From Elusimicrobiota bacterium (GTDB lineage Bacteria > Elusimicrobiota > Elusimicrobia > UBA1565 > UBA9628): a stretch of 36,962 bases of DNA. Shown piece by piece: positions 1 through 9,304 of the stretch (within the stretch, counting starts at the first letter, position 1; the number at the start of each line of letters is the position of its first letter). The notes under the pieces are model-generated. The model did no database searches. It was given only the letters and a program-made list of their open reading frames with translations, and was not told the origin of the DNA. The stretch is taken from NCBI GenBank assembly GCA_027451985.1, contig DAIDHS010000018.1, forward strand, positions 15,026 through 51,987, in the 5' to 3' direction. Made by a program: the position numbers and the translations under genes.

Positions 1-566
1 AATTGAACGCCCTCTGGTACGATGGCGATGCGGCCTTTGAGGAATGGAAAATCTTCGAGCAGCAAGTTCCGCCCGAAGCGAGAAAGCGCGGTCGCTTCGC
101 GCCCGTGCAGGAGCTTTGCGTAGCCGGCGAGGGATTGGGCCGTGCGGCCCGTGATGGGGTTGCGCCAGTCGTGGAACGAGACCAGAAGAGGCAGGCCCAG
201 GGCGCGCAGACGCCGGTCCAGCCACGGCACGGCCTTGGTGTAGTCGCCGATGGCGTGGTAGTGGACGGCGTCCACCCGGCGCAGAAGGGGGCCTAGGCGC
301 GCCTCCATAGCGGCCGCGATGCTCTGCGGGCTGCGTCCCTTGTTGAGACGGACCAGCGTTCCCCAGCCAAGGTCCTCATCTTCGGCGCCGCGGATGGGCG
401 CGGCCGCGTATTGCCACAGAAACGGCGCGGCCGCGGCGACCGCATGTCCGCGCTCGGCGTAGCGGCGTCCAAGGTTCGAAAGGACGACGCTGAAGGTGGG
501 ATTGTCGAAGTCGCACTCGCAGAGCAGAAGGATTCTGCGCGGCGCGCGTGCGCCGGGTTTCATCAT
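1..566 (-). CDS. Glycosyltransferase, GT-B/family 4-like, 3' end outside the window
   Basis: The first 188 residues are present; the gene continues beyond position 1. It is a paralogue of the complete glycosyltransferase at 1449-2537. Both share an N-terminal pattern (hydrophobic strand, then CECDFDNPTF or SECSFHNPTF), a WGTL element, an IGDYT element, an SFHD element and the run around LLHGREAT and FGRNLLLEDFPFLKG. These belong to the N-terminal acceptor half of a GT-B enzyme; the sugar-nucleotide half is missing here. The ATG at 566 overlaps the TGA of the upstream hydrolase in an ATGA, so it is probably translationally coupled as the last visible gene of a three-gene operon. The substrate cannot be told. 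The first 80 bases match 1993-2072 exactly. Confidence 0.8.
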   Translation of the reverse strand, partial: MMKPGARAPRRILLLCECDFDNPTFSVVLSNLGRRYAERGHAVAAAAPFLWQYAAAPIRGAEDEDLGWGTLVRLNKGRSPQSIAAAMEARLGPLLRRVDAVHYHAIGDYTKAVPWLDRRLRALGLPLLVSFHDWRNPITGRTAQSLAGYAKLLHGREATALSRFGRNLLLEDFPFLKGRIAIVPEGVQ

Positions 567-1441
567 GTCCGGCCCGCGGCGAGGGACGAAGAGCCCAGAA
601 AGGCCAGAAGCGCCGCCTCGAGCTCGGCGTAACGGGGGTTGGTCTCGGGCCGGGTGACGCGCTCGTGCGCGATGCCGTCTTCCTTGGGGTAGAGGAGGAA
701 GGTTCGTCGCGATTGCGGCGGCAAGGAGGCCATAAAGTCGGCCACCGCGTCCGAGTCGACCGCGGCGTCCACGGCCGTGGCCAGCGCGAAAAATCCCAAG
801 CCGCGCGCGGCGATGGCGGAGAGAAGCTCCGAGCGCGCCGCATCGTTGTCCTGGATGAGCCGGCGCAGCTGGCAGACGGCGTTCAAGGCCATCTTGCCGT
901 AGCGGTTGGCGTCGCCGCGGGTGTCCATGGCCCAGGGATGCACGGCCTTCATGATGGGCGCCACGCCCGGTAGGCAGGCCCAAGGCACGAGGCGGGAAAC
1001 CAGTTTCAAGGCGGGCGTGAACAAGAACACGTCGCCGAAATCGCAGGGCGCCGGACTCGCGCAATTGCGGCGCAGGGCGTCCAAGACGAGAGCCCCGCCG
1101 GTGGAAAATCCGGCCAAGGAGACCGTGCGCCCCAGAGCCGCGGCCGCATCCAGGCCGAAGTCCGTCTCGTCGCGCCACTCCTTGAGCGTGACGCGGAGCA
1201 GATCCTGCGGGCGCGTGCCGTGGCCGGGGAGCAAAATCGCGGCCACGTTGTAGCCTTGGGCGTGGAAGAGGCGGGCGAGTTCCCTCATCGAGTGGGGCGA
1301 GTCGGTCAGCCCGTGGACCATCAGAATGGAGCGCTCGGTTCGTCGGCCGTGGAGGAGCAGGAAAGGCTTGTTGTCTGGGTCGGGAGCCGGGCTTTGCGCG
1401 ATGCGCGCTTGAAATCGCTCGACTGCTTGCGAGCGGGTCAC
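563..1441 (-). CDS. Alpha/beta-hydrolase (lysophospholipase/carboxylesterase-like serine hydrolase)
   Basis: This 292-residue protein has the oxyanion-hole element HGLTDSP (about 43-49) and the nucleophile elbow GFSTGG with Ser113. A probable acid lies at Asp225 or Asp229 and the catalytic His259 in DGIAHE. These are typical of monoacylglycerol lipase or carboxylesterase-like enzymes. No signal peptide is seen, so it is probably cytoplasmic, unlike its secreted paralogue at 11225-12463, which shares GFSTGGAL and DGIAH-VTRP. The GTG start lies just downstream of the glycosyltransferase stop at 1449, and its own stop overlaps the next glycosyltransferase start. Being between two glycosyltransferases suggests deacylation or hydrolysis of a glycan or glycolipid intermediate; this is inference. 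The substrate is unknown. Confidence 0.85.
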   Translation of the reverse strand: MTRSQAVERFQARIAQSPAPDPDNKPFLLLHGRRTERSILMVHGLTDSPHSMRELARLFHAQGYNVAAILLPGHGTRPQDLLRVTLKEWRDETDFGLDAAAALGRTVSLAGFSTGGALVLDALRRNCASPAPCDFGDVFLFTPALKLVSRLVPWACLPGVAPIMKAVHPWAMDTRGDANRYGKMALNAVCQLRRLIQDNDAARSELLSAIAARGLGFFALATAVDAAVDSDAVADFMASLPPQSRRTFLLYPKEDGIAHERVTRPETNPRYAELEAALLAFLGSSSLAAGRT

Positions 1442-1448
1442 GTCCCAA

Positions 1449-2537
1449 TTATAGCAGGTCTAGATAGCGAGCCGCGGCGCTCTCCCAAGTATAGCGGGCG
1501 GCGGTTCGCTTGGCTTCACGGCCCAGCCGCCGGCGCAAAGGCGCGTCCTCTAAGAGCCGCTTCAGGGCGCGCGCGAGCGGGGCTATTTTTCCCGGCGGCA
1601 CCAGGAGTCCCGAGACCTCGTTTCGGATGAAATCCGTCGGTCCCGTGGCGCTGGCCACGACGGCCTTGCCCAAAGCCATGGCTTCGAGCGCTGCCATGCC
1701 GAAAAATTCGTGGCGCGAGGGCAGGACTACGAACTCGCTGGCCGCCATTAAGCCGAGGGTCTCGCGGTGTCCGGACTGGCCCAGGAACCGGACCTTGCCG
1801 GAACGGGCCAGCCCCAGGCGTTCGGCCAATGCGCGGGCTTGCCCGCGCGGGTCATTGCCCGCGAAGACCAGCGGCGGAGGGTTTTCCAGCGCGGCCCAGG
1901 CCATCATAAGGATATCCGGAGCCTTGTAGTAAGCCAGCCACGCGGGGCAAAGGACGAAAGGCGTTTCGGGCGCGCGGCGCGTCAAGGGCTCCAATTGAAC
2001 GCCCTCTGGTACGATGGCGATGCGGCCTTTGAGGAATGGAAAATCTTCGAGCAGCAAGTTCCGCCCGAAGCGCGAAGGCACGGTCGCTTCGCGCCCGTGC
2101 AGGAGGGACGCGTAGCCGGCCACGGATTCGGGCGTGCGGCGGATGGATGGATTGCGGTAATCGTGGAATGAAGCAAGGACAGCGGCCTTGGAGGCGCGCA
2201 GGAGACGGTCCAGCCGCAAGACGGCCTCGGTGTAGTCGCCGATGAGGTGCAGGTGAACAAAGTCCGCCTCTCGCGTAAGCGGCGCGAGTTTGGCGATATT
2301 GACGGAGGGAACGCGGCCGCCGTCGTTTCCCCAAAGGCGCATGAGCGTTCCCCAGGAAGTCCGGCGGTTTTTTGCTCCGCGGGGTTCGGACAGGGTGTAT
2401 GGCGAAAGCGGCGCGGCGACCCGCACGGAGTGTCCGCGGCCGGCGTATTCGAGAGCCAGGCTGTCCAGGACGATGCGGAACGTGGGGTTGTGAAAAGAAC
2501 ACTCGCTGATTACCAGGATCTTGCGCATGGGGGACAT
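1449..2537 (-). CDS. Glycosyltransferase, GT4-like
   Basis: A complete 362-residue GT-B enzyme. The N-terminal half has the open beta-alpha pattern of the acceptor domain. The C-terminal half has the nucleotide-sugar domain, with FLGQSGHRE, the acidic motif HEFFGMAALEAMALGK (about 280-295), then GPTDFI and GLLVPPG. This is the usual layout of family 4 glycosyltransferases, which move a sugar from a nucleotide donor with retention. It is the first gene of a leftward operon (this gene, hydrolase, second glycosyltransferase). The ATG at 2537 is preferred over the ATG at 2528 because it lies next to the AT-rich intergenic promoter region, but no strong ribosome-binding site is visible for either. 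Donor and acceptor are unknown. The 43-residue peptide at 2621 diverges from it. Confidence 0.88.
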   Translation of the reverse strand: MSPMRKILVISECSFHNPTFRIVLDSLALEYAGRGHSVRVAAPLSPYTLSEPRGAKNRRTSWGTLMRLWGNDGGRVPSVNIAKLAPLTREADFVHLHLIGDYTEAVLRLDRLLRASKAAVLASFHDYRNPSIRRTPESVAGYASLLHGREATVPSRFGRNLLLEDFPFLKGRIAIVPEGVQLEPLTRRAPETPFVLCPAWLAYYKAPDILMMAWAALENPPPLVFAGNDPRGQARALAERLGLARSGKVRFLGQSGHRETLGLMAASEFVVLPSRHEFFGMAALEAMALGKAVVASATGPTDFIRNEVSGLLVPPGKIAPLARALKRLLEDAPLRRRLGREAKRTAARYTWESAAARYLDLL

Positions 2538-2620: not shown

Positions 2621-2752
2621 ATGAAGAAGAAAGACGGTGAAAAGCCGAAAAAAGGCCGCGGTGGAAAAAAGAAATACACTGTTCCTGCCTTGACTTTGGC
2701 CGGCAGCCTGCTGTCTGCGGGAGGGCTTTGGGCGGCGGTCGTCGCCCTCTAA
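2621..2752 (+). CDS. Small peptide with YxxPxLxxxG motif, candidate RiPP precursor
   Basis: This 43-codon reading frame is ATG to TAA. Residues 1-18 are highly basic (mostly Lys, Gly and Arg). Residues 19-28 read YTVPALTLAG, an exact match to YxxPxLxxxG, the leader motif known from lasso-peptide precursors and some other RiPP leaders, where it binds a recognition domain. Residues 29-43 are hydrophobic (SLLSAGG then LWAAVVAL). The conserved Thr of true lasso leaders is missing, and no lasso cyclase or protease is in the window. A Gly-Gly at 34-35 could be a cleavage site, leaving an eight-residue core; this is a guess. GGAG lies 11 bases upstream, with TATAAT further up. The radical SAM gene at 5542-8175 supports a RiPP reading. 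The alternative is a single-pass membrane microprotein, since 20-43 could span a membrane. Confidence 0.6.
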   Translation: MKKKDGEKPKKGRGGKKKYTVPALTLAGSLLSAGGLWAAVVAL

Positions 2753-2777: not shown

Positions 2778-3341
2778 CTAGGACAGCCAATCCACGATGA
2801 CGAATTTCGCCCCCGAGGCGACTTTCTCCCCAGAGTGAGGATGCGTGATGCCGGAGGGAAAGACGACGGCCTTGCCGGGCTCCGGTTCGACGCGGACGTT
2901 TTGCCGCGGGAAGTAGGTCCGCCCGCCGTCGTAGTCCGCGTTCAGGTAACAGACCAAACTGATAATGCGCCCGCTCACCGTGGGACCTGCCCTATCGATA
3001 TGCATCATGATGTGGCCGCCCGCCTCGTAGCGCAGCATCATCGCCTGCCTGGTGGCGTAACGGAAGACGCGGTATTCCCAACACAGCATGGCGGCCGGCT
3101 TGGCTGCGGCTTCGACCGCCGAGAGGTAGCGCTTGAGAAGCCCCGGCAGGGAGCGCAGCCGCAGCTTCGAGACCCACGCGTCGTCATGGTTGACGGCTTG
3201 TACGGTGGCGTAGGGCCAGGCCAGCGCCGCGTCCTCCCAGCGCCGCCTGCGCCGGCCGATGCCGTCAAGGATGTCGCGGCACTGGGAAGGGGAAAACATC
3301 TGGAAACTGAAAATGTCCTGGGCCTCCTGCTTGATTTTCAC
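2778..3341 (-). CDS. Fe(II)/2-oxoglutarate-dependent oxygenase (prolyl-4-hydroxylase-like), copy 1
   Basis: This 187-residue protein has the double-stranded beta-helix signature of Fe(II)/2OG oxygenases. His114 and Asp116 form HID, His169 lies in THPH, and Lys179 is ten residues later, the position of the 2OG-binding basic residue in prolyl 4-hydroxylases. The conserved core NADYDGGRTYFPRQ lies between. Such enzymes hydroxylate or otherwise oxidise a C-H bond using O2 and 2OG. Copy 2 at 4104-4664 is a close paralogue with a nearly identical C-terminal third. The start is GTG, aligned with the MKIK start of copy 2, without a clear ribosome-binding site. It converges on the small peptide gene, and its start is only 11 bases from the divergent gene at 3353. 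The substrate is unknown; the small peptide is a candidate. Confidence 0.85.
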   Translation of the reverse strand: MKIKQEAQDIFSFQMFSPSQCRDILDGIGRRRRRWEDAALAWPYATVQAVNHDDAWVSKLRLRSLPGLLKRYLSAVEAAAKPAAMLCWEYRVFRYATRQAMMLRYEAGGHIMMHIDRAGPTVSGRIISLVCYLNADYDGGRTYFPRQNVRVEPEPGKAVVFPSGITHPHSGEKVASGAKFVIVDWLS

Positions 3342-3352
3342 GCGCGCGATCC

Positions 3353-4126
3353 ATGGCGGCGATGAGCAATAAGCCCGCCGTCCCGCCTCCGCCGCGCCGC
3401 TTGTTCCACTGGACCGACGCCGCCGGGCTTGAGCGCATCGCCGCCGCGGCCGCGTCCTTGCAGGGATTGGCGGGCTTGCGGGCCGCGTGCGCCGCGAAAT
3501 ACGAAGGCTCTCTTCCCCGAGCGCTGGGCGCGCCGGCCGCCCCGATTCTTTTCGGCTGGATCCACCCCGTGACGGGGATGGCGGTCAATCCGGGAGAAAT
3601 CTACGCCGGGCGCGGCGCTCCCCGGGACGCCCGGATGCTCATCGTCGACATCAGGCGCGGCCTTGCGGTCGCCGCAGTCGTGCATGACGCCGCATCCGGC
3701 CGGGTGCGCGCCAGCGTCCCCGCGCCGCCCGGCGGCGCCGATTTGGTTTATCACGAGCTGCGGCACCCCAACGGATCGTCGCTGCGCGAGTGGATCGTTC
3801 TGCGCGCGCGGGCCGTCAAGAGCCTTGCCGCGCTGCCGTCGCGCGAGCTTAAAATCTTTTTGCGTGGGGAAATGGAGAAGCTCGGAAATCCATCCTATCA
3901 ATATCCCGAGCGGCTGCTTCATGGCCGTTCCGCGAGGCTTACGCGGGGCCGCCGGCGCTTTTTTTTGGACGTCACTTCGCTCACGGCGGCGCGCCGGGCC
4001 GTCATCATCCCCGCGATCGAGCGCGTGCTTCGCTTGAGGCCCGATGACGTCCCCGCCGCGTTCAGGCATCCGCTGATTGTTGGTCCGCTCGGCATCCGCG
4101 TCTCTAGGACAGCCAGTCCACGATGA
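3353..4126 (+). CDS. Unrecognised protein with H-Y-E pattern, possible ADP-ribosyltransferase-like fold, copy 1
   Basis: I do not recognise this 257-residue family. It is paralogous to the protein at 4661-5374. Both share LFHWT near the N-terminus, LFxW-HPVTG, then a YA pair, V/IxHE and a GSSxREWxVL strand. His19, Tyr84 and Glu146 sit in the order and local settings of the H-Y-E residues of ADP-ribosyltransferase-type folds (HxT strand, Y strand, E followed by VVxNP in the paralogue). That comparison is inference from pattern only. Neither a signal peptide nor a membrane segment is visible. The ATG at 3353 or the one at 3362 could be the start. The last 23 bases overlap the 3' end of oxygenase copy 2 in convergent orientation. 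It always sits beside an oxygenase, so the two may work as a pair. Confidence 0.7.
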   Translation: MAAMSNKPAVPPPPRRLFHWTDAAGLERIAAAAASLQGLAGLRAACAAKYEGSLPRALGAPAAPILFGWIHPVTGMAVNPGEIYAGRGAPRDARMLIVDIRRGLAVAAVVHDAASGRVRASVPAPPGGADLVYHELRHPNGSSLREWIVLRARAVKSLAALPSRELKIFLRGEMEKLGNPSYQYPERLLHGRSARLTRGRRRFFLDVTSLTAARRAVIIPAIERVLRLRPDDVPAAFRHPLIVGPLGIRVSRTASPR

Positions 4127-4664
4127 CGAACTTGGTTCCCGAGGCGACTTTTTCCACGCCGTGGGGATGCGTGATGCCGGAGGGAAAGATGACGGCCTTG
4201 CCGGGCTCCGGATCGACGCGGACGTTTTGCCGCGGAAAGTAGGTCCGGCCGCCGTCGTAGTCCGCGTTCAGGTAGCAGACCAGGCTGATGATCCGGCCGC
4301 GGATGGTGCCCATGCAATCGATGTGGGGGATGAAGTGGCCTCCGGGCCCGTAGCGCAGCAGCAGCGCCTGCCGGGTGGCGAAACGGAAGACGCGGTATTC
4401 CCAACATAGCATGGCGGCCGGCCTGGCCGAGGACTCCACGGCGCGTCGGTAGGCGTCTTTAAGGGACGATACCCCTCCGAGCGGCGCTTGGTGCGCCAAA
4501 CCGTCCTGGTAATCGACGACGGGTCGCAAATCGTCGGACCATGCCAAGGGCGCGTCTCTCCAGCGCGGAGGACGTTTGGCGAGGAGCCGGAGCGCGTCCG
4601 CGCACTCGGCGGGAGAGAACATCCGGAAGCTGTAGATGTTCCGGCCCTCTTCTTTGATTTTCAT
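4104..4664 (-). CDS. Fe(II)/2-oxoglutarate-dependent oxygenase (prolyl-4-hydroxylase-like), copy 2
   Basis: This 186-residue paralogue of the enzyme at 2778-3341 has the metal triad His114, Asp116 and His168 and the 2OG-binding Lys178, with the same NADYDGGRTYFPRQ core. The ATG overlaps the TGA of the upstream H-Y-E gene (4661-5374) as ATGA, so the two are probably translated together. The N-terminal half differs more from copy 1 than the C-terminal half, which fits duplication followed by divergence in substrate contact. A degenerate third copy lies at 8209-8552. The function is oxidation of an unknown substrate, possibly the small peptide. Confidence 0.87.
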   Translation of the reverse strand: MKIKEEGRNIYSFRMFSPAECADALRLLAKRPPRWRDAPLAWSDDLRPVVDYQDGLAHQAPLGGVSSLKDAYRRAVESSARPAAMLCWEYRVFRFATRQALLLRYGPGGHFIPHIDCMGTIRGRIISLVCYLNADYDGGRTYFPRQNVRVDPEPGKAVIFPSGITHPHGVEKVASGTKFVIVDWLS

Positions 4665-5374
4665 CTGCGCCCGGCGGGCGAGAACTCGGGGAAAGCGGTC
4701 CTCAGCTCTAAGGGGATTCGCCGCGGAGAGAGCCGCGCGACCGCGCGGAGGGCGGGAAGGACGATTTTACCCCGCAGGCCTGGAGAAGTCACGCTTAAAA
4801 AAGCCGACTGGCGGAGCCCCGGAAATTTGCTGACGGCGTGCGCCGCGCGCGGCGGGTAGTCGTAGCGCGGATCGGCGAGCCGCGAGAGCTCTTGCTTGAA
4901 GAAACGCCGCAAAAAACGAGCGTCCGCCGTGAAGCTCTCGACGCATGCGGGATTGAGGACGACCCATTCGCGCACGGAGGAGCCGTCGTCGTAGCTGATT
5001 TCGTGAAAAATCAAATCCGCGCCGCGTGGGATGCGCGGGGCGAAGCGCCGCGGCTTGGCGGGAAGGTTCTTCCCGTCGTGGTCCCGAAGAGCGCACACGC
5101 GCGCGCCTCTCTTGATTTTGAGGGTGAGCAGCCTGGAGTCGCCTGCACTTTCCGCAGCATAGACGACTTTGGGTCCCGAGGCGATTCCGGTTACGGGATG
5201 AGACCACGCGAAGAGGGCTGTCATGGAGCGCAAATCCGGATGGAAACGGTAAAGCGCCGATTCGGGCGGTATCTTTTTGAGCATGAGCCCACCGCTCTTT
5301 TTCGCGTGGCGCGCGAAATGCATTAATTTTTCCGCCGTGGTCCAGTGGAACAAAGTCGCTGGCGCGTTCGCCAT
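4661..5374 (-). CDS. Unrecognised protein with H-Y-E pattern, possible ADP-ribosyltransferase-like fold, copy 2
   Basis: This is a 237-residue paralogue of the protein at 3353-4126. From the ATG at 5374, His10 lies in FHWTTAEKL, Tyr72 in VVYAAE, and Glu136 in SSVREWVVLNP. The last strand pattern (E, then VVxNP) is what many ADP-ribosyltransferase folds show around the catalytic Glu, but overall similarity to a named family is not something I can show. A TTG at 5410 would add 12 residues; the ATG is preferred because the paralogues align better from there. It is coupled to oxygenase copy 2 by an ATGA overlap. The remnant at 8584-8650 shows that a third copy once stood upstream of another oxygenase in the same order, so the pairing is a repeated arrangement. 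Confidence 0.7.
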   Translation of the reverse strand: MANAPATLFHWTTAEKLMHFARHAKKSGGLMLKKIPPESALYRFHPDLRSMTALFAWSHPVTGIASGPKVVYAAESAGDSRLLTLKIKRGARVCALRDHDGKNLPAKPRRFAPRIPRGADLIFHEISYDDGSSVREWVVLNPACVESFTADARFLRRFFKQELSRLADPRYDYPPRAAHAVSKFPGLRQSAFLSVTSPGLRGKIVLPALRAVARLSPRRIPLELRTAFPEFSPAGRR

Positions 5375-5430
5375 GGCAAATAGCTTATCGGAAAATTCCG
5401 TTGATTTCAACGCGAAAAAGCTCTAGCCGT

Positions 5431-5541: not shown

Positions 5542-8175
5542 CTAGGCTTGGGGTTGCGGCTTCAGCCGCCTCGTTCGGTGCGGGCCCTCGCTTCTAAGCG
5601 GCGGCATCAAACGCAGTCCCAGGTGCCTTAATCGGAGCATTCGCTCGAAAAGAATCCGCTGCCGGCCGGATATGTTCGGCGCGCGCGGGGCCAGGGTCAA
5701 GAAATCCCGGTTCTTTCGGATGATCCAGCGTTTCTGCAATAAGTGGCCGAGCGCTTTTCGTACCGCGCCCGGATTCCAATTCTTATCGCGGCCGCGGCAT
5801 GCGCTTGCCACCGCCGAAAACGATTTTATCGTTTCGCAAAAATGGAAAATGAAAGCCTCGATTCCATGCAGCCTGGTTTCCCGCATTTCCGGAGCTTTTC
5901 CGATAGCCAGCGGCCGCGAATCGTAAATATCCACGAATCCGTCGCCGTTGTAATAGGCGAAAATGTTCCGCTCGTGGATGTTTCTCCAAAACTCCAGGCC
6001 GCGCCGAAGTTCGTCCGGGAGCGCGGCGTCCGAACTGGCCGGGCGCGGGGGCGGCAGGTGCGTCAGGGCCAGGATGTCCCCGGCCGCGATAGGATCGCCG
6101 GAGGCGGCGGACGCGCCGGACACGGCGGACGCGCCGGACACGGCCGCCCGTTTGAGGGCTTGGACGCTTTGCAGGCTCATGTTTTCGGCGCTGACGCGCG
6201 CTTCGGGCCGCTCTGGATCGCCAAGAGATTGCGGCGAACGCCGGGAAGGATGATTGCGGCGCGCGGCCAACATTTGTTCGAAGCGCGCCGTCTGGGCCGG
6301 CGTCAGTTTGGAGACGGGGAGCGCCAAATTGAGATAAAGTCCGTCCTCGCACAGCAGCCAGCGCCGCTCGACCAAGGATTGCAGGGTTTTGACGACGTCA
6401 TGCTCGCTCCAGCGGGAGTTCCTCGCCCGGCAGAGCGCCGCGATTTCCCGCGCTCCTAAAAGCGCGTCGGCGGCCTTAAACGCGGCGGCCTCCAGGCCTT
6501 CTAAGATGCACTCGCGCAATTCGGGCGTTCCACCGGTGCGCAGCGGCCGCGAGTCGTAAAGCCGCACAGACTCGCCGTCGCCGTCGCAGGCGAAAAAGTT
6601 CTCCGGCCAAATGGCCCTCCAAAACTCGGCCGTCTTTACCAAGGCTTCGGTGTGCGGCCCGAATATTCTCGCACGGTCCTCGGCGGCGAATTCAAACACG
6701 TAGGCGATATCGCGAAGGACGAACCGCGGCTCTGGGTAAAGGAAGCGGTAGCATTCATGCGGGGCGGGCCGCTTTAACCCGAAATCTTTCCAGTTCTCAT
6801 AATAAGGGCTGAAGCGGTCGATATGAATTTCTCCTTGATGCTGCGGCGGCGGCAGGTGAGTCAAGGAAAGCACGGTTTGAATCAGCTGCGGATAATCATC
6901 CTGATTTTCCCCGGGAAAACCATAAATCATATTCCAAAGCAAATAAACTGCGTTCAAAGCGGCAAGCTTCATGGTTTGAACGTTTTGAATCGTGCGGACA
7001 CCCTTGCGGAGAAGTTTCAGCGCGGGCGTGCTGAAGGTCTCGATGCCGGGCTGCCAAGACAGCACTCCGGCTTCCGCGAGGTCCGCCGCCTGTCCGGGCT
7101 TGATGTTCGATTTGAACTCGCAATAGATGTCCCAATCCGCCGCGAGATTTTTGCGCTGCCGCGCGAGCTCGGGCAGCAAGGTTTTAAAGTAGTCTTGGGA
7201 GAGAATTAAATCGCAGAACATCAGGCGCTGCGCCTGATGGCGCCGATGAAGAGCCGTAATTTCCCGCAGGACCAATTCGGCCTTCTTGGCCCGGAACGCC
7301 ATCGCCTGCCCGGGCAGGCCGCAAAACACGCAGTGCTGCTTCTGGCCCCACCAGCACCCGCGGGAGGCTTCCAGGGTCACGATGGGGGTGAAATGCGCGC
7401 CGGCGCCGGAAAGTTCGAGCTGCTCGAAATAGTCGTCGTGATCCGGCGCCGGCAGGAGGTTCATGTCAATGACGGGCATATGCGCCGGATCTCGCGGCAG
7501 AACTTTCCCATTTTCGCGCATGGAGACCCTGGGCGCCGGAGCGTGGGGTTTGCCGCTCTCGATGTTGCGCGCCAGGGCCAAAAGCGCCTGCTCTCCCTCT
7601 CCGTCGACGACGTAATCTATCCAGTCGCAGCCGCGCAAGGCCGCCAAGCCCATGTCGCCCTCGACATTGGCGCCGCCGAACGCGATTTTGCTTTTGGGGA
7701 AGCGGCCCTTGATGAGCTTCGCCATGAGCAGGCTGGCCGAGTGGTTCCAAAGGCAGGAGGAAAATCCGATGAGGCCGTAGCAGCCCCAGTCGATGCCGTC
7801 AAGGCATTCGGATAGAAAGCTCGGAATCTCACGCTCCACGACGGCGGAAAATTCTTGCGGAGAAACCTTGGCGGAGCGAAGAAAATCCTGCATCCCCGCG
7901 ACGCGAACGATGTCGTCGATGCCTTGGGGGAGCGGCGCTTGCGGCCCTGAGCCGGGGCCGAAAAGATGATAGGCGAAGAGCCATTCAGGCCAGGGCAGGG
8001 CGCCGGTGCGGCTGAGGCGGACGCCTAGGCCGCCCAGGCGGCGGACTAGGCGCATGTAGAGATGGTGGCAGTCCGCTTCGATTCCGTTGTGGCGCAGCCA
8101 GCTTTTGAGGCAGGCCAGGGAGAGGGGCGCTATCTCAATGTCCGACCACGGCATCATGACTAGGGCGACTTTCAT
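5542..8175 (-). CDS. Radical SAM protein of the RiPP maturation type 1 family, with duplicated C-terminal domain
   Basis: This is an 877-residue enzyme. Residues 1-200 resemble the cobalamin-binding-like N-terminal domain (ALVMMPW at 4-10, EWLFAYHLFG, GFSS, FGGANVEGDMGL, VVDGEGE). The radical SAM domain follows, with SRGCWWGQKQHCVFCGLPG giving the CX7CX2C cluster ligands Cys274, Cys282 and Cys285. QPGIETFS, LLRKG, WNMIYGFPGE and DRFSPYY complete the pattern of 'ribosomal peptide maturation radical SAM protein 1' (TIGR03975-like). These enzymes modify precursor peptides with SAM-derived radicals. It is longer than the roughly 600-650 residues I expect: a C-terminal unit (LTHLPPP, EFWR, YDSRPL, a winged-helix-like W...RW stretch) occurs at about 437-640 and again at 703-852, joined by a VSGASA repeat. 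The remnant oxygenase and H-Y-E genes lie upstream on the same strand. Confidence 0.88.
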   Translation of the reverse strand: MKVALVMMPWSDIEIAPLSLACLKSWLRHNGIEADCHHLYMRLVRRLGGLGVRLSRTGALPWPEWLFAYHLFGPGSGPQAPLPQGIDDIVRVAGMQDFLRSAKVSPQEFSAVVEREIPSFLSECLDGIDWGCYGLIGFSSCLWNHSASLLMAKLIKGRFPKSKIAFGGANVEGDMGLAALRGCDWIDYVVDGEGEQALLALARNIESGKPHAPAPRVSMRENGKVLPRDPAHMPVIDMNLLPAPDHDDYFEQLELSGAGAHFTPIVTLEASRGCWWGQKQHCVFCGLPGQAMAFRAKKAELVLREITALHRRHQAQRLMFCDLILSQDYFKTLLPELARQRKNLAADWDIYCEFKSNIKPGQAADLAEAGVLSWQPGIETFSTPALKLLRKGVRTIQNVQTMKLAALNAVYLLWNMIYGFPGENQDDYPQLIQTVLSLTHLPPPQHQGEIHIDRFSPYYENWKDFGLKRPAPHECYRFLYPEPRFVLRDIAYVFEFAAEDRARIFGPHTEALVKTAEFWRAIWPENFFACDGDGESVRLYDSRPLRTGGTPELRECILEGLEAAAFKAADALLGAREIAALCRARNSRWSEHDVVKTLQSLVERRWLLCEDGLYLNLALPVSKLTPAQTARFEQMLAARRNHPSRRSPQSLGDPERPEARVSAENMSLQSVQALKRAAVSGASAVSGASAASGDPIAAGDILALTHLPPPRPASSDAALPDELRRGLEFWRNIHERNIFAYYNGDGFVDIYDSRPLAIGKAPEMRETRLHGIEAFIFHFCETIKSFSAVASACRGRDKNWNPGAVRKALGHLLQKRWIIRKNRDFLTLAPRAPNISGRQRILFERMLRLRHLGLRLMPPLRSEGPHRTRRLKPQPQA
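6105..6140. repeat. 18-bp tandem repeat, two copies, inside the radical SAM gene
   Basis: The 18-bp unit at 6105-6122 is repeated exactly at 6123-6140. On the minus strand it encodes two VSGASA units (about residues 679-690) in the flexible linker between the two C-terminal domains. It looks like a recent slippage event in a low-constraint linker. Confidence 0.85.
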
Positions 8176-8208
8176 GGGCGGAGGCAGTATGATATAAAAG
8201 CTCTCGGC

Positions 8209-8552
8209 TTACGAGAGCCAATCCACGATGGCGAGCTTGGTCCCCGAGGCGACTTTTTCCGCGGGGAATAGGTCCGACCGTCCTCGTAGCGCAGCAGCAT
8301 CGCGGCCGGTTTGGACGCGGATTCGACGGCGCGGCGATGGGCCCGCGCCAGGAAGGGAACGCCGCGTAGAACGGCCTGGTTCGCCAGGCCGTCATCATGA
8401 TCGTACACGGGCTTCAAATCGTCGGACTATCCCAGGGGCGAGTCTTTCCAGCGGGGAGGGCGCTTGGCGATTCGCGCCAGCGCATCCGCGCATTCCCGGG
8501 GAGAAAACATCAGGAAGCTGATAATGCTTTGGCCTTCTTCTTGTATTGTCAT
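8209..8552 (-). pseudogene. Degenerate third copy of the small Fe(II)/2OG oxygenase
   Basis: Starting at the ATG at 8552, the first 41 codons match oxygenase copy 2 closely (EEGQSIISF, MFSPRECADAL, KRPPRWKD). Codon 42, Trp in the intact gene, is TAG (8427-8429). The match continues to KPAAML and then jumps over the segment with the HxD ligands: only LRYE, GRTY and, in a shifted frame, EKVASGTKLAIVDWLS remain before TAA. Two internal deletions, one frame change and a nonsense codon remove the metal site. It lies directly upstream of the radical SAM gene on the same strand, which suggests an ancestral operon of H-Y-E gene, oxygenase and radical SAM gene. Confidence 0.88.
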
Positions 8553-8583: not shown

Positions 8584-8650
8584 TTAACTTGATTTGGATG
8601 CGCGTCGCACGAAATGGTTTAATTTTTCCGCTTTGTCCACCGCAACGGGT
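8584..8650 (-). pseudogene. Remnant of a third H-Y-E family gene
   Basis: On the minus strand this stretch matches the start of the gene at 4661-5374. One frame gives RWTK (for HWTT) and, after a one-base shift, AEKLNHFVRRASKSS follows (for AEKLMHFARHAKKSG) and then stops. It lies just upstream of the degenerate oxygenase at 8209-8552, in the same order as the intact pair. The remaining ~200 codons are gone. The start of the neighbouring oxygenase is therefore unlikely to be the TTG at 8594, which would read through this remnant. Confidence 0.7.
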
Positions 8651-8680
8651 GTTTCAAAGGAAGTTCCTCGCGTCACGGGT

Positions 8681-9304
8681 ATGCGATTGCCTTCCGGCCG
8701 CCGCATCGAGCGCATGCGAAGGGGCTACGCGCGGCAGAGCTACGCGCGCTGGCCTGGGTTTTTGGACGCGCGGCTTTTAAAGCGCATCCTGCCCAGAATT
8801 CGGGCGGCAGCCTTTCGCGAGCGGTACTATGCGAAGAGCTACCGCGGCATTTGCAGGCACTGGAGCCGTGCGCTGAGCCTGCTGCTAGATCAGCCGCCGC
8901 TGCATGATTGCGTACAGAGGCTTTCCGGCTGCCCATACCCTATTCGCGCCATCCGTGCGGTCGTCTACCGCCAAACCTCGGACAAGAGGCATCGAGTCTT
9001 GTGGCATACGGATCCGCCGACGCTCAATGGCCGCTGGGCCGAGTGCACCTTGTCCGTCAACCTCGGCGGCTCTTATGAAGGCGGCGAACTTGAGATTCGC
9101 GCGCCGGGCGGCAAGAGGCTTATGGCGCGCATCGCCAACAAGAAATCGGGCGACGCGGTTTTGTTCCGCCATACGCTGGTCCACCGCGGCGCCCCGGTCG
9201 TGGGCCCGCGTCCCAAGCTCGTGCTCTTCGTCTGGTTTTCTCTCAGACCTTTGCACCGGGCTGGCAAGCTGAGCCTGCGGGCGCGCAAAGGTGTCCGGGC
9301 ATGA
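8681..9304 (+). CDS. Fe(II)/2-oxoglutarate-dependent oxygenase, divergent type
   Basis: From the ATG at 8681 the protein has 207 residues, with N-terminal half basic and Tyr-rich. The C-terminal beta-helix carries His109 and Asp111 (WHTD), NLGG-YEGGELEIR, and His168 (LVHRG) followed by Arg177 and Lys179 as candidate 2OG-binding residues. It is only distantly related to copies 1 and 2. The frame is open back to a TTG at 8594, but that part overlaps the remnant of another gene; an ATG at 8714 is a further alternative, and no good ribosome-binding site decides. Its TGA overlaps the ATG of the methyltransferase, so the two are probably coupled. A 55-bp fragment of a second copy lies at 5431-5485. 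Confidence 0.8.
   Translation: MRLPSGRRIERMRRGYARQSYARWPGFLDARLLKRILPRIRAAAFRERYYAKSYRGICRHWSRALSLLLDQPPLHDCVQRLSGCPYPIRAIRAVVYRQTSDKRHRVLWHTDPPTLNGRWAECTLSVNLGGSYEGGELEIRAPGGKRLMARIANKKSGDAVLFRHTLVHRGAPVVGPRPKLVLFVWFSLRPLHRAGKLSLRARKGVRA

Follow-up and report, generated by a model that had tools for sequence, protein, structure and literature searches.

What does a lasso-type leader motif do in a peptide whose surroundings hold no lasso enzymes? The question is raised by a 43-residue reading frame in a 36,962-nucleotide stretch of Elusimicrobiota DNA, which was analyzed as a whole and is called the window here. From sequence comparisons, we consider it likely that this frame is a non-lasso RiPP precursor, whose leader would be bound by a PqqD-type RRE acting in trans and whose end would be modified by the enzymes encoded beside it. 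The features on which the argument draws are the following.

563..1441, minus strand: alpha/beta hydrolase (PF12697), on the same strand as the GT4 gene
1449..2537, minus strand: GT4 glycosyltransferase (PF00534, 92.8 bits), divergent from the peptide
2621..2752, plus strand: putative precursor peptide gene, 43 aa plus stop (translation; family profile E 8.6e-9 without own-genome sequences)
2621..2674, plus strand: Lys/Arg-rich leader start, residues 1-18 (sequence; plan common across the family)
2675..2704, plus strand: leader motif YTVPALTLAG, residues 19-28, predicted RRE-binding strand (conservation in 26 family members)
2705..2749, plus strand: hydrophobic C-terminal segment SLLSAGGLWAAVVAL, residues 29-43, candidate core with its boundary placed by eye
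2778..3341, minus strand: 2OG-Fe(II) oxygenase (PF13640, 56 bits), convergent with the peptide, with an orthologue in the related operon
4104..4664, minus strand: second 2OG-Fe(II) oxygenase, a paralogue (PF13640, 60.8 bits)
5542..8175, minus strand: B12-binding radical SAM RiPP C-methyltransferase, 877 aa (TIGR03975, 549.6 bits, cut-off 281.85)
6256..6678, minus strand: first winged-helix domain copy in the C-terminal part of the radical SAM protein, spanning residues 500-640, with a topology like that of RREs (AlphaFold2 pLDDT 92.9)
5625..6009, minus strand: second winged-helix domain copy, residues ~723-850 (phmmer E 7e-22 to the first copy)
8594..9304, plus strand: third, more distant 2OG-Fe(II) oxygenase (PF13640, 30.8 bits), of uncertain membership in the system

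The peptide frame and its neighbors

The translation of 2621-2752 on the plus strand is MKKKDGEKPKKGRGGKKKYTVPALTLAGSLLSAGGLWAAVVAL, followed by a stop. It bears out the details that an earlier note on this DNA had read from the letters: YTVPALTLAG is an exact YxxPxLxxxG at residues 19-28, the tail behind it is hydrophobic with Gly-Gly at residues 34-35, and no Thr occurs after residue 25, so that none lies past the motif and the penultimate Thr of lasso peptides is absent. The resemblance of the motif to lasso leaders was confirmed as real and beyond chance. The window has 125 frames that start with ATG and span 25-80 aa; of these, the 43-residue frame alone contains [YW]xxPx[LIVMF]xxxG, and YxxPxLxxxG arises in 0.1% of composition-matched shuffles of the peptide. 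Furthermore, a profile built from other genomes only recovers the window peptide at E = 8.6e-9, the next of 773 window frames standing at 0.08. An NCBIfam and Pfam scan of the peptide gave nothing significant (weak lasso_cyano matches only), and the promoter and terminator scan around its gene gave no signal above chance.

The frame lies in a 240-bp gap, with the divergent GT4 gene (to 2537, minus strand) on one side and the convergent oxygenase gene (2778-3341, minus strand) on the other. Between the frame and the radical SAM gene are 2.8 kb that include other genes, and the gaps near the radical SAM gene yielded no convincing further precursor candidates. The absence of a lasso cyclase or B-type protease nearby, also remarked upon by the earlier note, was upheld on a wider scale. 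No lasso enzymes were found among the ten nearest genes, and the lasso B2 transglutaminase-like leader peptidase (PF13471) has no match genome-wide and none over the cut-off in 21 family genomes. The Asn-synthetase-like cyclase (PF00733) is absent from the window's contig, its own-genome matches being on contigs C1 and C15. A lasso peptide is thus ruled out by the missing leader peptidase (genome), the missing cyclase (contig) and the missing Thr.

Within the window, near-identical DNA in two GT4 genes (1-115 and 1994-2110) suggests recent duplication or gene conversion. At 8172-8552 (minus strand), upstream of the radical SAM gene, another 2OG-Fe(II) oxygenase copy is left as a broken remnant. 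The frames at 3353-4126 (plus) and 4661-5410 (minus) form a paralogous pair, 40% identical, without a Pfam or NCBIfam match; their HWT...Y...REW(V/I)VL pattern is reminiscent of ADP-ribosyltransferase folds. Elsewhere in the genome, about twelve radical SAM domains are arrayed in 20 kb (C5:40700-60317).

A peptide family and its loci in Elusimicrobiota

A single-sequence search with the window peptide returned weak matches in relatives and a second copy in its own genome, and profile searches added a third. Over the phylum, 49 of 341 genomes give family profile matches at E <= 0.02, and those of about 41 genomes are convincing; the genomes searched were mostly draft assemblies, and group and core boundaries were drawn by eye. 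The frames share a plan consisting of a Lys/Arg-rich start, then YxxPxLxxxGxL, then a short tail. The Tyr/Trp, Pro, Leu and Gly positions of the motif are kept across the family, and among 26 members Pro22 and Gly28 are invariant and Tyr19 is conserved in more than 90%. Two supergroups can be distinguished: a window type with hydrophobic tails of 13-20 residues (SLLSAGGLWAAVVAL, SLSVSNVAFATTLS and SLLLMSQKGLMATSIPG), and a type in which the motif contains HG and the tails are short and more hydrophilic (members KHGVLSIVEGD, KHGALSQTALARSY, KHGSLNSQIASFRTFY and SHGKISEVASAFKP).

The tail of the window peptide, SLLSAGGLWAAVVAL, is without a close match. Among the relatives, the 13-residue tail MSQKGLMATSIPG is identical in members of two different genera (G000:C1 and G007:C44) with different leaders, and its 13 codons differ by synonymous changes only. 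The tails of other family groups are also kept, with many third-position changes. These patterns indicate that selection acts on the C-terminal part in the relatives concerned. This short precursor-peptide family of the Elusimicrobia is likely an undescribed branch of gene-encoded natural products, and it is identified here in a phylum for which a literature search combining Elusimicrobia with RiPP or radical SAM returned nothing relevant among its titles.

The family peptides keep company with modifying enzymes. A B12 radical SAM gene lies within 4 kb of the peptide, mostly within 200 bp, in all ten window-type loci examined; several of these loci have 2OG oxygenases, and GT4 or GT2 genes usually adjoin the peptide. 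In the window's own genome, each of the three precursors has a radical SAM domain no more than 5 kb away, although such vicinities make up 11% of the sequence (p ~0.0014 under random placement). Loss of the frame in relatives that keep the radical SAM gene, which the earlier note had named as evidence against its proposal, was not what we found: the best relatives of the window enzyme are three G007 proteins, 46-47% identical, and each of them has a family peptide at a distance of up to about 8 kb. The nearest same-genus genome (G001, ~86% complete) has a family peptide, one without a standard start codon, and no close copy of the window radical SAM protein. The closest related locus, found in G007:C80 and again as L155 (contigs equal in length at 64,502, same peptide and same PqqD, counted once), is a same-strand run of radical SAM (43%), GT2, peptide MAKGKDKKRKRRPWLKPVLVVHGALTYLATQAGIALAVLP, GT4 and PqqD genes. 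Its radical SAM protein is a TIGR03975 C-methyltransferase, and its divergent oxygenase is 40-42% identical to those at 2778-3341 and 4104-4664 of the window. As far as sequence comparison goes, this run is the strongest single link joining peptide, radical SAM enzyme, oxygenase, GT4 and RRE.

Some precursors depart from the common plan. In L181:7558-7983, L189:9862-10743 and L190:8670-9119, the family leader (YxxPxLxxxG plus ~15 residues) is fused to a Peptidase_S74 intramolecular-chaperone domain, and a cut at the start of this domain would leave ~40-45 residues, as in the stand-alone members. L186 has two precursor genes in tandem (454-567 and 629-775) that agree in the leader but differ in their ends, and a single PqqD lies next to them. 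Precursors from two different genera (L066 ~1750-1960, minus; L069 ~6800-7030, plus) run into a common ICCLTER motif and a tail rich in Arg, which may be a further follower type.

Proposed recognition of the leader and its alternatives

PqqD (PF05402), a discrete RRE, is encoded in 106 of 235 genomes of the class and in all 41 of the family-bearing ones. It lies within 1 kb of 19 of the 52 family peptides and within 10 kb of 29, with ~0.6 expected under uniform placement; these co-occurrence and clustering counts ignore the shared ancestry of the genomes. The window lacks a PqqD. The one clear copy of the genome is at C12:42364-42648 (PF05402 match at 42379-42579, 71.3 bits), on a contig other than the window's, among fatty-acid-type genes (by eye) and in a stretch 88% identical in G001. 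This protein matches the family profile (E 8e-23) and the leader-bound lasso RRE TbiB1 (E 9e-11), and also TfuB1, PbaB1 and LppB. According to PMC13381572, N33 of LppB holds the Pro and D70 the Tyr of a YxxP leader, and mutating them weakens binding; the C12 protein carries N39 and D76 at these places. Position 76 is D in nearly all loci with a Tyr leader, whereas with a Trp leader it is E (G007:C80) or else position 39 is A (two loci). The residues of the Trp-leader RREs appear to be in line with the published Tyr/Trp switch, with few independent cases. This relation between leader and RRE residues is directly testable.

The C12 protein was assigned to the window peptide by elimination, since the genome, 95% complete, has no other clear copy, and by its residue signature. 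The assignment implies that three unlinked precursors share one PqqD. Such precursors would probably be handed to their modifying enzymes by a separate small docking protein. A broader and more speculative arrangement, which we hold to be possible but rather doubtful, is that one chromosomal RRE outside any cluster serves as the hub for several unlinked cassettes of precursor and B12 radical SAM enzyme (three here), with leaders doubling as export signals and some precursors trimmed to 40-45 residues by a C-terminal S74 autoprotease-like domain. If true, a single trans RRE for several unlinked precursors means that cluster-based genome mining misses such systems.

The course from binding to product is what we infer from these patterns. 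Most likely, the Lys-rich leader ending in YxxPxLxxxG would be bound by the C12 PqqD through strand addition, the mode of binding in lasso and LPP systems (see below), and the RRE would offer the hydrophobic end of ~15 residues, SLLSAGGLWAAVVAL, to the enzymes encoded beside the peptide. There, the TIGR03975 enzyme would methylate unactivated carbons, the 2OG-Fe(II) oxygenases would hydroxylate residues, and the GT4 may glycosylate Ser29, Ser32 or a newly made hydroxyl. The leader would then be cut off by a peptidase, possibly a general signal peptidase. A dedicated leader peptidase or exporter was not identified.

The earlier note had suggested that the leader is read by a recognition domain within a neighboring enzyme, for example the duplicated C-terminal domain of the radical SAM protein. 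Reading by a recognition domain is well supported by the conserved family, the universal PqqD/RRE, the enzyme clustering and the conserved tails in relatives. The radical SAM domain is a possible reader but not a needed one, since a discrete lasso-type PqqD exists elsewhere in the genome and the closest operon joins PqqD, radical SAM enzyme and peptide. The modeled fold of the duplicated domain (AlphaFold2, pLDDT 92.9) is a bbb-aaa winged helix, the topology by which PMC12710340 defines RREs, and the window has no PqqD. A weak hhalign match to PqqD (P = 0.009 over 75 columns) and the presence of TbiB1 among the Foldseek matches, at rank 31, also speak for this reader. However, the Foldseek matches are generic winged helices and not specific to RREs. 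Moreover, TIGR03975 proteins from many phyla carry this domain as a rule, and for most of them no YxxP peptide was found nearby, whereas PqqD is present in every family genome and in the operon of the closest relative. We thus regard a RiPP precursor read by this domain instead of a trans PqqD as unlikely.

Slightly less probable still is a small exported peptide that is no RiPP, with a specialized Sec-type signal (Lys-rich start, hydrophobic stretch, A-x-A-like site) of which the motif would be a part. Sites of the A-x-A type are seen by eye near the end of most window-type tails (LWA/AVVAL here, AFA/TTLS in C9 and AMA/QSWWGWW in G040), and the Peptidase_S74 domain begins just past such a point in three relatives; but the same leader precedes short hydrophilic tails in many genomes, and an export signal leaves the clustering with PqqD and B12 radical SAM enzymes unexplained. 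Export and RiPP maturation are not exclusive of each other. The plain membrane microprotein that the earlier note offered as its other option is disfavored, as the same leader is joined to hydrophilic tails in homologues. Together with a non-functional frame resembling a lasso leader by chance, it is very improbable: the last 15 residues are hydrophobic and the gene lacks promoter or terminator signals above chance, but the stretch is short for a membrane span, the family is conserved with a third-position bias in relatives, and PqqD co-occurrence is universal among family genomes. The preferred reading remains a RiPP precursor with a leader bound by the trans PqqD.

Comparison with known systems

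Recognition sequences of the YxxP type are not confined to lasso systems (PMC12710340), and of the proteins that RRE-Finder collected with its model for discrete lasso RREs, about half were reported not to co-occur with lasso enzymes (PMC7470986). The present family would offer concrete substrates for some of these proteins. The pairing of a lasso-type leader with a B12 radical SAM C-methyltransferase, a 2OG oxygenase and a GT4 is not described in those portions of the literature that were compared.

With PQQ, GeoRSP and SynChlorMet, the system shares a small peptide, a PqqD chaperone and a radical SAM enzyme, but other radical SAM enzymes are used there. In addition, the PqqD proteins scanned from relatives, at four precursor loci and in the closest related operon, fall far below the PQQ, GeoRSP and SynChlorMet model cut-offs and are nearest to the lasso PqqD models. 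The window radical SAM protein is a clear member of TIGR03975 (549.6 bits), a family annotated as acting on ribosomal peptides, which we take to be of the proteusin PoyB/PoyC type. Proteusins, too, have a Val/Ala-rich hydrophobic substrate and a 2OG hydroxylase. However, proteusin precursors have long Nif11 or nitrile-hydratase-like leaders, whereas the window peptide has a short YxxP leader.

Lasso systems with a discrete B1/RRE (fusilassin/TfuB1, TbiB1, paeninodin/PbaB1) share the YxxPxLxxxG leader, and the RRE is a homologue of TbiB1 and TfuB1 in which the Tyr-binding Asp is kept. In contrast, the window system has other modifying enzymes and no B2 peptidase, nearby cyclase or pre-core Thr.

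Linear polyphosphorylated peptides (LPP) are a non-lasso RiPP class with a YxxP-type leader, a discrete lasso-like RRE and glycosyltransferase-rich loci (Popov et al. 2026, PMC13381572). The system described here shares this kind of leader, RRE and glycosyltransferase content, but its window-type clusters carry B12 radical SAM enzymes and 2OG oxygenases in place of the kinase and the archaeal-type signal peptidase. No HprK-like kinase lies within 10 kb in the window-type loci compared, and the SipW-like archaeal-type signal peptidase TIGR02228 has no match in G000, G001, G007 and G020; this peptidase was dropped as a leader peptidase, being absent from the window-type genomes tested. The extended motif YxxPxVLxHQxIxFETxxS given in PMC13381572 does not occur in the window leader YTVPALTLAGSLLS. 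LPP as defined are thus ruled out by the missing SipW-type peptidase, the missing kinase and the different extended motif.

The sibling KHG-type clusters of Elusimicrobiota share further traits with LPP, namely HprK-like kinases and ORFs with weak signal-peptidase-like matches. Near KHG-type precursors, very long ORFs (L074:2714-6874 and L076:12926-18520) overlap weak TIGR02228 matches, with HprK-like kinases nearby, and the L074 ORF contains right-handed beta-helix repeats; these loci are possibly LPP-like RiPP clusters. Judged on sequence, LPP are the nearest working analogue of the system described here, and the KHG groups are closer to them than the window type is.
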